From assembly GCA_020975725.1 (NCBI GenBank), contig QXJR01000012.1, positions 659,501 through 723,500 of the forward strand: a DNA stretch of 64,000 bases. The letters are read 5' to 3'. Of the stretch, positions 1,195 through 52,443 are shown piece after piece. This DNA comes from Picocystis sp. L7. Taxonomy: Eukaryota > Chlorophyta > Picocystophyceae > Picocystales > Picocystaceae. A program made the position numbers and the translations under genes. Each line of letters starts with the position of its first letter. The first letter of the stretch is position 1. The notes beneath the pieces were generated by a model. The model was not told the origin of the DNA and did not search any database. It worked only from the letters and a program-made list of their open reading frames with translations.

Positions 1195-1637
1195 TGTTAG
1201 AAAGAACTTGATCAGGGTCCTTCTGTGTGGGACAATTTGGGTCACGTTGTGAGTCTGATCCGAGGGTTTCGTTGCTGCGAAGGTTTTCTCCTTCTCTGTG
1301 GTAGCGATCCACACGAGAGGCACGTCGTTGGCGATGCAGGCGCGTTGCTCGAAGGCAGATGGGCGGTGTTGGTTGGTAATGCAAAAACTGATTACAGGTA
1401 AAGTCGCGAGCGCTTTAAATACTGCGTTCTAGCGAGTTTGTCGAGGGGTTGGTCGCCTCGTATTCTCCGCAAGCTGATCATCCTCTTCGTCACGTGCGTT
1501 CAGGGGCTTCTGCGTCCTGAACGTCTTCGTCGGTTCTTCCGTCTCGACTTGCTGGGAAGTACTGTTTTGGCGCGTCTTCCTTTGGGCTTGGTTCAGTACG
1601 GGGCTGTGTCTTACTGGAAAGGGTATTCCTTCCAACA
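1195..1637 (-). repeat. 3' LTR of the copia element
   Basis: This is the second 443-base LTR. On the minus strand it is preceded by a purine run (GAGTGGGAG) that fits a polypurine tract. It points toward the DEAD-box gene, whose start codon is about 170 bases further on, so its internal TATTTAAA box could in principle supply a promoter. That last point is inference. Confidence 0.93.
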
Positions 1638-4600
1638 CTCCCACTCAGCTCTGTATTGGTCCAGGTCATTCCGAGTTGCTGTATGCATAGCTTGAATTTT
1701 GCTGTTGGTACTTGTTTTGTCAGATAGTCAGCCCACATTTTTTCTGTTTCGCAGTAGTTCATTTCCACTTCATTTCTCATTGCTCGTTCTCGTATGAAGT
1801 GATGCTGGACATCAATATGTTTGGCCCGTGTGACAGATTGTGGGTTCTTTAGCAGTCTGAGTGTTGACTGGTTGTCGATTAGTATTGTGACTTTGACTTG
1901 TTTTGGATTCAGCAGTTGTTGGACTAGGTTTCTGATCCATAGACTTTCTTTGATTGCAGCAGAGGCTGCCTGGTATTCGGCTTCAGTTGTGGAGGTAGCT
2001 ATTGTTGGTTGGAGCTTGCTCTGCCATGATACTAGTCCACCCAATACTTGAATGGCAAATCCAGTTCTAGACCTTCTGTTGTCTTTGTCACTTGCATAGT
2101 CTGCATCGCTGTATGCAGTGATTTGTATGGCTTGGTTTTCATCTTCAGTCGTTCCGGTATAGTTAAGCTGAAGGTCTTCAGTTCCCTTGAGATACTTCAA
2201 TGTTCCTCTCATGGCGTTCCAGTGGATGCTTGTGGGGCAGGTATTGTATCTTGCGAGTACTGAGGCTGCGTGAGTAAGGTCTGGTCTGGTTGTCCCACCG
2301 AGGTACTGGAGCTGTCCCACGATTTTTTGGTATGTGGTCTGTGCCACTATTTCTCCTTTTTCTTCGCTGGTAACTGGTACTGACAAGGGTTTTGTATTTG
2401 GTTTGCATTCAGTGACTCTGTGCTGCTCCAGGTACTCCTTTACCTTTGCTGCTTGTTCCATGCTCATGATTCTGTTATTGCGATCTCTGCTGATGGTTAT
2501 TCCTAGGAAATTTTTGGCTTCTCCCAGGTCAGTGGCCTTGTAGTGTTGCCTGATTAGATCTTTAATTTGGTTTATGAGTGTTGTGTTTTTGCTGGCTAAC
2601 AGGATGTCGTCTACGTAGAAACACAGGTAGCAGGTTCCTTGGTCAGTCCGGCACTTCAGCATGTTCTCATCCACTCTTATGCACTCGAATTTCATCTTCT
2701 TGAGTGTCTTTGTTAGTTCTTGGTTCCAGACTCTAGGTGCCTGTTTGAGTCCATACAGGCTTTTGTTCAGCTTGAGAGCTTGGTTTTCTGTCCTTTTGTT
2801 GAGTCCATCTGGTATTTTGAGGTATACCTCATCTTCCAGGTCAGCATTTAGGAATGCTGTTTCGATGTCCATCTGGTGCATTTCCAGATCCAGGTGATTG
2901 ACTGCTGCGAGAAATATTCTCAGACCTGTTTTGCTGACCACTGCTGCGTATATCTCATCATAGTCTTCTCCAGGTTTCTGATGACAGCCAAGTGCTACCA
3001 GCCTTGCCTTGTATTTGGTGATGTTGTTCATTTCATCCCTTTTTACTCTGAAGATCCATTTGGACCCCAGTGGTTTCTTGCCTGCAGGTAGGTCACAGAT
3101 GTCCCATGTTCTCATCTTTGAGAGGGACTCCAGTTCATTGTGGATTGCCTCAGACCAGAGATCCTTGTCCGGCCTTTTCATAGCTTTGTGGTATCCATCA
3201 AATTTGTCTGGGAGTCCTTCTGTGAGGTAAGCTTTGAAATTGGTCTGTCTGTTTGGCCTCAGATTGTATCGCTGACTGTTTTCCTCTTCCGCTGGTTCAG
3301 GTTCCTCTTCTTCTTGCTCTTCATCAGAGCTCTTGCTGGATAGCTCCCACTGATCTGGAGTTTCCATTGAGTCTTCGAGATACATTGTTTGTTCATTTTC
3401 TGTTGATCTGTTGTACTGACCCATTTGCTCTTCATTGAATCGAACATTTCTGCTGGTTACCAGTCTGTTGCTTAGTAGTACACGGTAAGTCGTGGAGTTT
3501 TCATACCCAATGAAAATTCCTTTTTCACTTCTGGGTTCAAATTTGCTTGTCCACTTTTCTTTGGGCTTCAGTACCCATGCTTCGCATCCAAAGGTTCTTA
3601 AGTGGCTAACTGATTGTTTTCTTCCTGTTAATTTTTCCAGGGGGGATTTGGTTTCTGCTCCATGAGTGGGGGGCAGTTTGTTTCTGGTGTAGGCGTAGGT
3701 CCGTACGGCTTCTCCCCAGTATTTTTGTGGTAGGTTACTCGCGTTCAGCATCGTGCTCGCGTGCTCTCTTATGTCTCGGTGGAGTCTTTCTGCGTCGTTT
3801 TGTTGGGGGGCGTAGCCAGCTGTTTTTTCGTGTTCTATTCCCCGTTCTGACAGAAAATCTGCGAGTTGTTTTCCCAGGAACTCTTGTCCCAGGTCAGTTC
3901 TGATGGCTCGTACGCGTTTTTTTTCCTTCTGCCTTTTGTTCCAGCACGTTTATGGCTCTTCTTGCATATTTCCCTGTGTGACCTTTTGATTGCATCAGGT
4001 ACACTAGGCATGTCTTGGTTGCATGGTCCAGAGCAGACATGTAGTATCTGTGTCCTCCTGGTGTTTCAGGATGTATGGGACCAACTACGTCCATGTACAC
4101 TAGATCCAGTGGTTCATATTGGTAGTCTTTTGGCTTGAATTTGGTCGCTGTTTGCTTGTTTTCTGCACAGGCATTACAGTTTTCGCTCAGTTTGTATGGT
4201 AGTCCGAGCTTTTTGATTCTGCTGCTGTGTATGTGGCCCAGTCTTTGGTGCCATATACTTGCTGTTGCAGCAAAGCAGTAGTTTGCGCTCTCTGTTAGAT
4301 TGGCTTTTATGGTCTTGTCTCCTTGGGTGATGAGGCAGGTTCCTTTGTTGAACCTTACTGATGCTCCGTTGTCTGTCATGCAGGTTACCGAAATCAGGTT
4401 GGCTGAGAGTCCTGGTACATATACTACGTTCTGCAGTTCTATTTTGGTTTGGTGGTCATCCTTCAGTGTCAGTTTTACTGTTCCTATTGCTTTGGTCTCT
4501 AGGAGTGTTCCATCTGCTATTTCTATGTGACCAGTGTGAGCTCTTAGTGTGGTGGTGTCCAGAAAATCTTGGTTCCCTGTCATGTGCCAGCTGGCACCTG

Positions 4601-49162: not shown

Positions 49163-49614
49163 GGCGTGGACGTGTGGTTCTGTCCGATTCCCTGCACCAT
49201 GGTGGCACCACGTCACGAGCCACTCCCTCCCACCCCCACGAAAGGGCACCCCTTGGGACCAGCAAGGATCGAAAGGACGGGGCGTCTTTGTGCGGTCCTT
49301 GGGATGACCTCCCTCCCCCCTCTCCTCCCCCCACGAAGAGGAGGCAGGAGGTAGGAGGAAGGGGGGGGGCACGATCCCTGTGTGTGGACCCAAAGGGGGG
49401 GGGCGAACGGGAGGGTGTCCCATCGACCCTCTACCTCCTTCGGGTTCCCACCCTCGCACCTGGGTCCCTCCTCGATCGGTCGGGGTGGAGTGGGGGGTGT
49501 GGGGTGCATCCGAGACCCCTCCTCTCCTCTCTCCCTCCTCTCCTCTCCAATCCTCTCCCTCTCTCCCTCCCTCTCTCCCTATCCTCTCCACTCCTCTATC
49601 CCTCCTTTCTCGAG
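49163..49614. other. Sigma factor leader and CT-rich simple DNA
   Basis: The sigma factor promoter lies here. From about 49515 to 49610 the plus strand is nearly pure CTCTCC/CCCTCT repeat. The tyrosine-recombinase element begins right after it, and the same kind of tract resumes on its other side (52242-52340). G-runs occur at 49363-49370 and 49396-49404. Confidence 0.6.
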
Positions 49615-49643
49615 AAATATTGTAAGGTTTCGTTACAAACTGA
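49615..49643 (+). repeat. Candidate recombinase site, outer left
   Basis: Left arm AAATATTGTA is perfect, then a 9-base spacer AGGTTTCGT, then TACAAACTGA, which keeps only the first half of the consensus right arm. It marks the probable left end of the element. Confidence 0.5.
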
Positions 49644-49769
49644 CCCTATTTATCGATATCTTTTGTAACCATTCGTCCAATATTTCGAAAATCTTTTCTT
49701 TTTCGGTCCCGATTCCCCTTTCAAGGACCAAAAACGAAACCGGGGAAAACGAGATGCCAAAATTTATGG

Positions 49770-49798
49770 AAATATTGTATTGATATCTTACAATATTT
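49770..49798 (+). repeat. Candidate recombinase site, inner left
   Basis: Perfect arms AAATATTGTA and TACAATATTT flank the spacer TTGATATCT. The site lies 110 bases before the recombinase start codon, so recombinase binding here could also control its own gene (inference). With two preceding G it is nearly identical, inverted, to the right-end copy. Confidence 0.65.
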
Positions 49799-49907
49799 GA
49801 TCTCGATCAACGCAGTCGAAAGTATCGATGTTCGTCGACAGAGATATCTACCTTTTGTCGACCGTTGGGAGACGTACAACGACGAGCACGGAGGATTGGC
49901 AACGACG

Positions 49908-52055
49908 ATGGCGCAAGACCCGAACGACTGCCTCGGCAACGAGCGCGTTCGAAGAGATGCCATCGATGTCTCTATGACTCGAGATATTCAAAGAATGAGC
50001 AGGTCCAAAGCTACCTTGAGAGATTACACGACCAAAAACTCAAAGTTCCTTCTTTGGGCGATTGAGAACTATGAAGGGCTCAAAGAACTTGGTGCCCACG
50101 AATTTATGTGCGAAGATTGGGTAAAACGAGTGATTTTGCAAGATGAAAACCGAAGAGTGAAAGAGGTGAAGAATATACTTGCTAATATTGACCCTATAAA
50201 TAGGAGTGGGTTGGAAGGTATCCTTCATTTGGATCAGTTGGACTTCTCCGCATGGAGCTACTTCCTTACAAGTATACGGCGCAAGAATAAAAACGGAGGG
50301 GAATCCTACTTGAAAAACTATGGCAATTTTAAGTCGGCCTTTCGCTTTTTGTTTCGTTCGGTGGGTGTGACTTTGCCACCATGGTTTGACACGCATGCAA
50401 AGGAGCTTGTCACGGCCCTTAGGAGAGTCTCTGCTCAAGAGCGTGGGGAAGATGCCGGAGAGTCACATCAAGTGGGAAAATGCTCTCTCCCGTTTCCTCT
50501 CTATTGTGCAATGGCGCATGAGCTTCTTCGAGATGGACTGTGGAGTGCCCACTTCATTCATGTGTACTCATGGAATCTCTCGGCAAGGGCATCTACAACT
50601 TGTGCTCTACGGCTATCTCACTTTGCTTGGGACAATGATTGCATGAAGATTTACATTCCAACACAAAAGAATGATCAAGATGGAGGGAAGCAAGGTCAAT
50701 ATCCACACCATGTGTATGCAAACCCAAACATTCCATACATATGCCCATTATTATCCTTGGCAATGTTTTTAGCCACTACCGAGAGGGCAGATTCAGATGG
50801 AAATGCTTTCTTTGATGAACAAGCAGCTTATGCAAGGCATTCAAAGCAAATGGTAGCATGGAAAGAAAAAAATGTTGAAATGCTCCGTGCATATGGCCTT
50901 GAACCTAGTGATATCGGGACTCATAGCAACCGGAAAGGAAGTAGCACCTTCGTAACATCTGGGGTTACCGATGGCCCAAGCATTGTTGCTATGTGCAATC
51001 GAGCCGGATGGGACACCGGCAAGGTGTTGAGCACCTACTTACGGTACGAGGCGGCCGGTGATCAATACATTGGTAGGATTGTGGCCGGCCTTTCACCATC
51101 AAGTGGAACAAAGTTTGCTCAGCTTCCTCCTCACTTCCTCCCCGGAGTAGATTTGCTGGTTCTTAATCAGCTCCTCAAAGTGGCATTTGGGAGTTTCACA
51201 CGGAGACCACTAGTGCAACCTGTGTTGGAGCATTGTTTGGCCACTCTTTTGTTCCATGAGGCATTCTTGCTTCACGATTTGGGCCAAGGGAACCCTCTAC
51301 GGTTTATACCGCTATGGCACGATCCATCCCGAGAGCATTTGAAGAGATTTCTGACCTGTGATGGCAATGAGGACAGATGTGGGAACGGCATCACGGCCAC
51401 CGGCATACCGATGAATGTGCACATCCTGTCCAGTTGCACATCAACAGCCAAGTCCATCGAGAAATTGAAGGACAACCTTCCTAAAGTTGTTCTTCAATGC
51501 CTCGAAGAAAGAGATGTTGACTGTGGGAACATCACATCAGCCTCCATCCGCAACATATTCCAAGAAATGATCCAGCCCCTCATGACGGCAGTGACGGAAA
51601 GCATCGAGGGTGGTGGGCAGCGGCCATGCGTACATCCACTTCAAGAGCCCAACATGCTTGGGCTCACACGTTTGCCAACAGCTCCTCTCCATATACCAAC
51701 CAAAATATCTGTGAAAGCAGCCTTTGTGAGCTATTCATCAGGCCAAACTCCATGGAAAAGGCTCACAAACGCTATGGTGGACAAAAAAGACCGAGTATTG
51801 TTAGCCGACCTCAAGTTCATCATGGAACACATCGAACGCGAGTTGGTCAAGAAGAACGCATGGAACGGAGAAGTGCCCATCGATCCAAGCTACGCAACGA
51901 GGCTCTTTGATCTCGCGAAGGAGCATGTGCCCACGAAGACAAAACACGGACGTACCCTCATGTGGCGAAGCGCATGCTTGTACCTCCGGAAGCAATGCAA
52001 GGCGAGGGCACAAGAAGACCAAGACGGGGACTCCTCGCCGCTTCCGCCATCTTGA
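49908..52055 (+). CDS. Tyrosine recombinase of the Crypton-like element
   Basis: The protein has 715 residues from ATG 49908; the frame is open further up but has no ATG. An N-terminal helical core-binding domain (about 25-190; SKATLRDYTTKNSKFLLWAI) precedes the catalytic domain. Candidate active-site residues are Arg in LSARASTTCALRLSHF (R227), Lys in IPTQKNDQDG (K254), the H-x-x-R pair in GTHSNRKGSSTF (H339, R342), a Trp in NRAGWDTGKV at the second-His position, and Tyr in STYLRYEAAGDQYIGR (Y377, Y380 or Y387). A ~300-residue C-terminal region (GITATGIPMNVHIL, then a helical segment) resembles that of recombinase families expanded in oomycetes and algae. Its role is unknown. No zinc finger or reverse transcriptase is present. 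It should cut and rejoin DNA at the element's ends through a covalent tyrosine link. Confidence 0.85.
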   Translation: MAQDPNDCLGNERVRRDAIDVSMTRDIQRMSRSKATLRDYTTKNSKFLLWAIENYEGLKELGAHEFMCEDWVKRVILQDENRRVKEVKNILANIDPINRSGLEGILHLDQLDFSAWSYFLTSIRRKNKNGGESYLKNYGNFKSAFRFLFRSVGVTLPPWFDTHAKELVTALRRVSAQERGEDAGESHQVGKCSLPFPLYCAMAHELLRDGLWSAHFIHVYSWNLSARASTTCALRLSHFAWDNDCMKIYIPTQKNDQDGGKQGQYPHHVYANPNIPYICPLLSLAMFLATTERADSDGNAFFDEQAAYARHSKQMVAWKEKNVEMLRAYGLEPSDIGTHSNRKGSSTFVTSGVTDGPSIVAMCNRAGWDTGKVLSTYLRYEAAGDQYIGRIVAGLSPSSGTKFAQLPPHFLPGVDLLVLNQLLKVAFGSFTRRPLVQPVLEHCLATLLFHEAFLLHDLGQGNPLRFIPLWHDPSREHLKRFLTCDGNEDRCGNGITATGIPMNVHILSSCTSTAKSIEKLKDNLPKVVLQCLEERDVDCGNITSASIRNIFQEMIQPLMTAVTESIEGGGQRPCVHPLQEPNMLGLTRLPTAPLHIPTKISVKAAFVSYSSGQTPWKRLTNAMVDKKDRVLLADLKFIMEHIERELVKKNAWNGEVPIDPSYATRLFDLAKEHVPTKTKHGRTLMWRSACLYLRKQCKARAQEDQDGDSSPLPPS

Positions 52056-52199
52056 TTTGCGTCTCCATTTCTCCCGCACGTGTGGTGCAGTCGACGACCT
52101 GTGTACTGCACGACGTAACGCAAACTAGGGCAAAGTCATTCCATTAATCGATATTTCTTTCCTGCATCTATCGCGATCTTTTCCAAAGATATCGATTAA

Positions 52200-52229
52200 A
52201 AATATTGTAACGATCTCAATACAATATTT
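52200..52229 (-). repeat. Candidate recombinase site, right end
   Basis: Perfect arms AAATATTGTA and TACAATATTT flank a 10-base spacer ACGATCTCAA on the plus strand. Read on the minus strand it differs from the inner left copy by one substitution and one extra base. The spacer asymmetry gives it the opposite orientation. Confidence 0.65.
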
Positions 52230-52443
52230 CCAGGTAAAACACTCTCTCCCTATCCTCTCCACTCCAATCCTCTCCCTCTCTCCCTCCTCTCCCTCTCTCC
52301 CTCCTCTCCCCTCCACTCCTCTCCCTCTCCTCTCCTCTTCCACCAGGGACGCGTGGGATGGGTGGATCCATCCTCCCCCCCTCGTCCCCTTCCAAACCCA
52401 TGTTCCTCCTTTTCCAACATCCAACACGCGACACCGGAAGAAG

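Follow-up and report, generated by a model that had tools for sequence, protein, structure and literature searches.

A recently active Crypton-type element with palindromic sites inside its ends in Picocystis sp. L7

Do palindromes bordering a tyrosine recombinase gene mark the points at which the recombinase crosses over, as lox sites do for Cre, or do they lie within a larger mobile element whose ends are elsewhere? The question is raised by a 64,000-nt stretch of Picocystis sp. L7 DNA (QXJR01000012.1, positions 659,501–723,500; ‘the window’), in which a first-pass annotation, made from the letters alone, described a recombinase gene bordered by lox-like palindromes. Searches of the genome (20.5 Mb, 30 contigs) place this gene in a recently active element of the Crypton kind (family A; Table 1), with four sites, S1 to S4, just inside its ends. 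The reading favoured here, at a probability of about 0.78, is that of a recently active Crypton-type DNA transposon that moves as a circle recombining at a short core, S1–S4 serving as docking sites for the recombinase.

Table 1 Coordinates of the family A element and its parts in the window.
Feature	Positions	Strand	Evidence or remark
Left recombination core, CTTTCTC (element's own core)	49605..49611	+	No variation among the 10 full copies of family A
Whole element, family A, 2,637-bp unit	49607..52243	+	Ends agree across 10 copies (6 loci) and 4 tandem junctions
Site S1, outer left half-palindrome, AAATATTGTAAGGTTTCGTTACAAAC	49615..49640	+	Sequence; arm motif in the same place in families A–D
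Site S2, degenerate palindrome, CTTTTGTAACCATTCGTCCAATATTT	49660..49685	+	Sequence; counterpart in families B, C and D
Site S3, perfect palindrome, AAATATTGTA-N9-TACAATATTT (10+9+10)	49770..49798	.	Sequence; pattern counts
Tyrosine recombinase, 715 aa, R227-K254-H339-xx-R342-W368-Y377	49908..52055	+	Open reading frame, conserved residues, predicted fold
Site S4, perfect palindrome, AAATATTGTA-N10-TACAATATTT (10+10+10), near right end	52200..52229	.	Sequence
Right recombination core, CTCTCTC (CT shared, then target sequence)	52242..52248	+	Varies between loci, CT-N-T-N-Y-C

Copies, ends and palindromes of family A

The ten full copies of family A occupy six loci. One is the window's own copy (C10); C24 has a tandem of four, C13 a tandem of two and C22 two copies apart from each other (C22a and C22b), and the last copy is on C4. 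The unit is 2,637 bp long (2,638 bp in the C13 array) and copies differ at 0–12 positions, those within an array being identical or one position apart, and C22a and C22b being identical though 11 kb apart. The part common to all ten opens with TTCTCGAGAAATATTG and closes with CCAGGTAAAACACT, beyond which the flanks differ; at C10 and C22a, CT-rich repeats are common to the two flanks of the copy. The element starts with TTCTCGAG, preceded by the shared bases CT (49605–49606), and ends with AAAACACT, and all four tandem junctions read AAAACACT-TTCTCGAG. Together, the common part and the junctions place the exchange in the CT dinucleotide, which lies 8 bases beyond S1 and 12 beyond S4. The ends first proposed, 49615 and 52229, fall 8 and 14 bases short of the boundaries set by the copies and junctions: the palindromes lie inside every copy, and all ten copies break outside them.

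The three palindromic sites of the first-pass annotation (outer left, inner left and right end, corresponding to S1, S3 and S4) are present as described, with none expected by chance. S1 carries the arm AAATATTGTA with a degenerate partner (GTTACAAAC), while S3 and S4 are, as had been stated, inverted copies of each other (21 nt, 95% complementary). The fourth site, S2, is weaker and was not part of that annotation. The S3 pattern (10-N9-10, ≤3 mismatches) matches once in the window, against a mean of 0 in 100 shuffles, and at 11 places in the genome, against 0 for a reversed-pattern control. All 11 are in element copies, 10 preceding full recombinase genes and one in a truncated relic (C3), and S4 taken together with its flank has 10 matches, each at the right end of one of the ten full copies. 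Scatter of the palindrome away from recombinase genes was also looked for. A family B-like pattern (≤2 mismatches) matches at 28 places, 11 of them S2 of family B, 10 S1 of family A and 7 elsewhere, a number that the reversed control also gives. This loose form is thus found outside elements too, unlike the family A patterns. Next to S2 and S4 is a second inverted motif (ATCGATATCTTT; window 49649–49668 and 52180–52199), which may be bound by another protein; family B has a similar motif close to its right end.

Palindromic arms flank a short spacer in Cre/lox, Flp/FRT and Xer/dif, and the sites described here share this architecture. The perfect 10-bp arms around 9–10-base spacers, and the inversion of S3 relative to S4, which extends partly through the spacer, would suit a recombinase that cuts within the spacers, excising or flipping the gene between S3 and S4. 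However, in contrast to Cre/lox and Xer/dif, crossover is not inside the palindrome spacer, since all insertions and tandem junctions of family A have their breakpoints outside the palindromes. The spacers of S3 (9 bases) and S4 (10 bases) differ in length and sequence, unlike those of lox partner sites, spacers diverge at S4 between subfamilies B1 and B2, and gene orientation is uniform, with 0/10 family A copies flipped. One junction in the C1 array of family B does lack 93 bp, so that S4 of one copy is joined to S2 of the next, but here the crossover (by eye) lies rightward of the spacer, in a AAAAAGTTGA common to the two sites, a position that slippage or short homology would give rather than cutting in the spacer. 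With boundaries outside the palindromes, unlike spacers and no flipped copy, lox-like excision or inversion was rejected as the main mechanism and is very unlikely; neither crossover by the recombinase at its own palindromes nor flipping of its gene, both suggested at first, is supported by the ten copies and four junctions.

The intact recombinase gene with R-K-HxxR-W-Y residues lies between S3 and S4, as originally annotated, its start codon 109 bases past S3. The protein is a tyrosine recombinase, with catalytic R-H-R-Y identified from conserved residues and predicted fold, and fold searches, informative mainly for residues 25–577, give a catalytic fold like those of the Cre/lox, Flp/FRT and Xer/dif enzymes; in the library ‘viral’ they returned integrases (best E-value 2.3e-3), and no fold was assigned to the final part of the protein. 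This is the one long open reading frame (ORF) in 49607–52243, the sole other wholly internal ORF of at least 100 aa being antisense (132 aa), and neither the ORF list nor a Pfam search of the long protein revealed a reverse transcriptase or other mobile-element gene in the family A element. Named relatives include proteins of oomycetes and a diatom, aligning over 19–78% of the query. No relatives were confirmed in viral contigs or prokaryote genome contigs by pattern scans, which reach close relatives only (one viral-contig scan with alignment used a single peptide pattern and the prokaryote scan used the single protein). Protein P0005, with source label Pavlova lutheri, is 100% identical over 556 aa to the B2 recombinase of the C21 copy (L038), possibly reflecting contamination, the same host or recent transfer.

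Site layout shared with related families

Exact arm motifs are found at positions 11, 166 and 183 of family A (42 and 24 from the right end), 12, 54, 172 and 188 of family B (41 and 25), 13, 58 and 165 of family C (37 and 26) and 13, 58, 152 and 165 of family D (37 and 26). All 22 such matches lie within the first 200 or last 45 bases, and motifs with one mismatch supply S2 in all four families. The arms of families A and B (TTGTAA-type) are unrelated to those of C and D (GTCACCC-type), yet their places agree within about 25 bases, giving the order S1-S2-S3-gene-S4. In C and D the right-end motifs form a direct repeat, not a palindrome, and a family E left end (C3:1083408) has the same site order (by eye). 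Inverted arms begin 8–25 bases inside the element tips, with no inverted repeat at the very tips, which read TTCTC...CT in A and B and TTC...GRG in C and D. This conserved layout with unrelated arm sequences across families is new here; no report of such an attachment layout, or of a one-sided core, in Cryptons was found among the open-licence papers listed, at most 20 per search.

S3 is upstream of the first ATG in families A–D, as it would be if the palindromes had a role in gene control only and were bound by a repressor, be it the recombinase or a protein of the host. S3, however, holds its distance to the element end (about 150–195 bases), whereas its separation from the first ATG ranges between about 15 and 109 bases (start codons assumed), and S4 is at the opposite end of the element. 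In family D, where S3 is about 15 bases before the first ATG, it is again the distance to the element end that is kept, so the site tracks the end of the element and not the start of the gene. A purely regulatory role is therefore quite improbable.

At S4 of subfamilies B1 and B2, and at S2 of families C and D, the arms are conserved and the spacers changed; differences at S3 between C and D, considered with a hairpin role of single strands in mind, are not compensatory (by eye). B1 and B2 are 98–100% identical over the first 200 bases, then 48–86% identical in 50-base windows and 95% identical over the last 21 bases. Among L031, L032, L038 and L040, representing B1 and B2, the near-identical left module of about 210 bases gives way to abrupt divergence just past S3. 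Such identity exceeds what selection on the sites alone would need, and the left module has likely been exchanged between the two subfamilies.

Recombination core and its polarity

The exchange core is short (CT plus NTNYC) and lies outside every palindrome. The left core TTTCTC of family A is also present in 11 of 12 family B copies, the twelfth being without its left end. Core values for families A and B were read by eye into a script for 14 separate loci, excluding the C3 relic (no right end; left TTTCAC). The left end has the element's TTCTC and the right end the N-T-N-Y-C of the target, with deviants from TTCTC at 0/14 left and 12/14 right ends (Fisher p = 6e-6). The 7-bp cores of family A are alike at both ends and identical at two of the six loci. 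Most family B and some family A copies are in pyrimidine-rich, often simple-repeat DNA (by eye).

For families C, D and E and near relatives, both ends were compared by eye in 20 elements, one-ended elements being excluded. In 12 elements the two ends have different triplets following the shared GRG, and 10 of these carry the family-typical triplet on the left; in the other 8 the triplets agree. C12:663k is ambiguous (ATC left, as in its sibling at C26:6k; TTC right), while C4:418k, with an atypical TTT left and TTC right, is contrary to the rule or has been changed by mutation. The clearest case is a duplicated locus on C4, where a D element and an E element share one insertion point: the right flank is TTCTCCAATCG for both, and the left core is TTC in D and ATC in E, each typical of its family. 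The element's core is thus kept on the left and that of the target appears on the right, a polarity due either to one-sided exchange, to uniform mismatch resolution or to a true overlap of only 2–3 bases.

A proposed circle as the transposing form, and related systems

Different families are joined end to end at C3:1083k and C1:687k (by eye), and these mixed junctions, together with the insertion of two families at the same base, point to circular intermediates. A circle that integrated at the joint core of a copy already in place would give arrays of identical units, such as those seen. Tandem arrays could also result from unequal crossing-over or replication slippage, as within-array copies that are identical or one position apart are what homogenisation would give. 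The first duplication would, however, need homology between the ends, which share only 2–7 bp, and the junctions between different families run counter to this explanation, which is improbable.

In the transposon reading, the element would leave, or be copied out, as a circle with the joint S4-CCAGGTAAAACA-CT-TTCTC-GAG-S1, for which the expected sequence is AAAACACTTTCTCGAG. The circle's target would then be a short core (CT-N-T-N-Y-C), either in the genome or at one end of an element already present, and recombination there would yield single inserts, tandem arrays or mixed tandem pairs. The palindromes are subterminal and are probably arm sites rather than sites of strand exchange: S1–S4 would be bound by the recombinase and hold the ends together, as the arm sites of lambda-type systems do, and the order of strand exchange, possibly one-sided, would leave the core on the left.

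Several observations weigh against this reading. The recombinase has no Pfam match at E 1, a sequence search of solved structures found no recombinase and the best Foldseek E-value is just 1.8e-3. Allowing one mismatch, the elements of families A to D contain 6, 9, 8 and 8 arm motifs against shuffled means of 2.1–3.1. The highest count among 200 shuffles (maxima 8–9) is surpassed only by B and matched by C, and four such matches are internal to the elements: one each in B and D and two in C. The ends themselves were the source of the motifs, which makes their clustering there partly circular, and the layout argument rests on the place of the motifs, not their number. Loose imperfect palindromes number 13 in each of A and B, against shuffled means of about 7 and maxima of 13; D has 12 (mean 7.5) and C has 7 (mean 8.1), so this count gives no general signal. 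S3 of C and D keeps its spacer nearly unchanged, unlike S2. Arrays of identical copies may be miscounted by assembly, and no circle, excision product or empty allele was observed.

Cryptons have a tyrosine recombinase and 4–6 bp terminal direct repeats taken as recombination substrate, with a proposed circular intermediate, and are described as without terminal inverted repeats or long direct repeats and with boundaries that are hard to characterise (PMC3212892). The elements here are alike in their tyrosine recombinase and short terminal direct repeats, which in families C and D are 6 bp long (GGGTTC or GAGTTC at both ends, e.g. C16:580k and C18), and the proposal of a distinct group outside Cryptons was accordingly not sustained. 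They differ in that S1–S4 form inverted arms just inside the ends, in a conserved layout. CryptonS, of oomycetes and a diatom, share a conserved C-terminal region; the TATGG termini of the majority of their members are absent, the ends here being TTCTC...CT or TTC...GRG, as is the GCR1_C domain of CryptonF, given the lack of any Pfam match. Some cnidarian CryptonV families reportedly insert in microsatellites (PMC8869645), resembling by description the pyrimidine-rich, often simple-repeat targets seen here.

In lambda-type and Tn916/Tn1549-type integrases, which have arm-type sites, the counterparts of the predicted arm sites differ from those here, which are mostly palindromes, form an ordered set of four and belong to a eukaryotic element. 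DIRS, Ngaro and PAT retrotransposons are set apart by the absence of a reverse transcriptase ORF from the family A element. Starships, giant fungal transposons, also have a tyrosine recombinase and short direct repeats at their ends, and their captain domain is DUF3435; the 2,637-bp family A unit has no cargo and its protein no Pfam match. Placing of the 6-bp core in Vibrio SE follows a fixed rule, taken by the authors as strict strand-exchange order (PMC9345347). A fixed rule for core placement is thus common to both, but SE, as described there, are bacterial, have two recombinase genes among four shared coding sequences, and the 6 bp of their left flank end up at the right end.

A further possibility, tentative and on balance doubtful, is that these elements represent a eukaryotic lineage with lambda-like attachment, in which four ordered, mostly palindromic arm sites have diverged together with the recombinase and a one-sided exchange leaves the core on the left and the target's core on the right.

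Family D ends in matching orientation were also found far apart, at C4:1130713–1162332 (+; 31.6 kb), C4:577385–593860 (−; 16.5 kb) and C13:411231–429785 (−; 18.6 kb), with RVT_1 matches inside the last two. In the 18.6-kb pair, the 11.3 kb examined contain a long ORF with reverse transcriptase, RNase H and integrase domains and another ORF with weak, below-cut-off gag matches, with a further ORF in the next 2 kb. For the 31.6-kb pair, no RVT_1 match was found among the 150 of 273 candidates scored. The idea of giant cargo-bearing elements was set aside for the 16.5- and 18.6-kb pairs, as nested retrotransposons account for at least part of these two sizes. End pairs 1.5–1.7 kb apart without a recombinase match (C13:135313–137001, C11:72177–73863 and C20:365925–367441) are possible non-autonomous derivatives. 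Elsewhere in the window are part of a Copia-type retrotransposon polyprotein (RVT_2; 1493–3751, − strand) and a RAD54B-like gene, with nearest named proteins from Myrmecia, Botryococcus and Trebouxia (41–43% identity), which, as far as one gene can tell, makes a green-algal or related host likely.

In one small genome, then, several families can be compared for which exact ends and target sites are available, along with arrays, mixed junctions and a doubly hit duplicated locus. This opens the attachment site, the point of crossover and the part played by the arms to direct testing. As integration tools, too, recombinases whose arm sites are known and whose target is short and loose could be of use.
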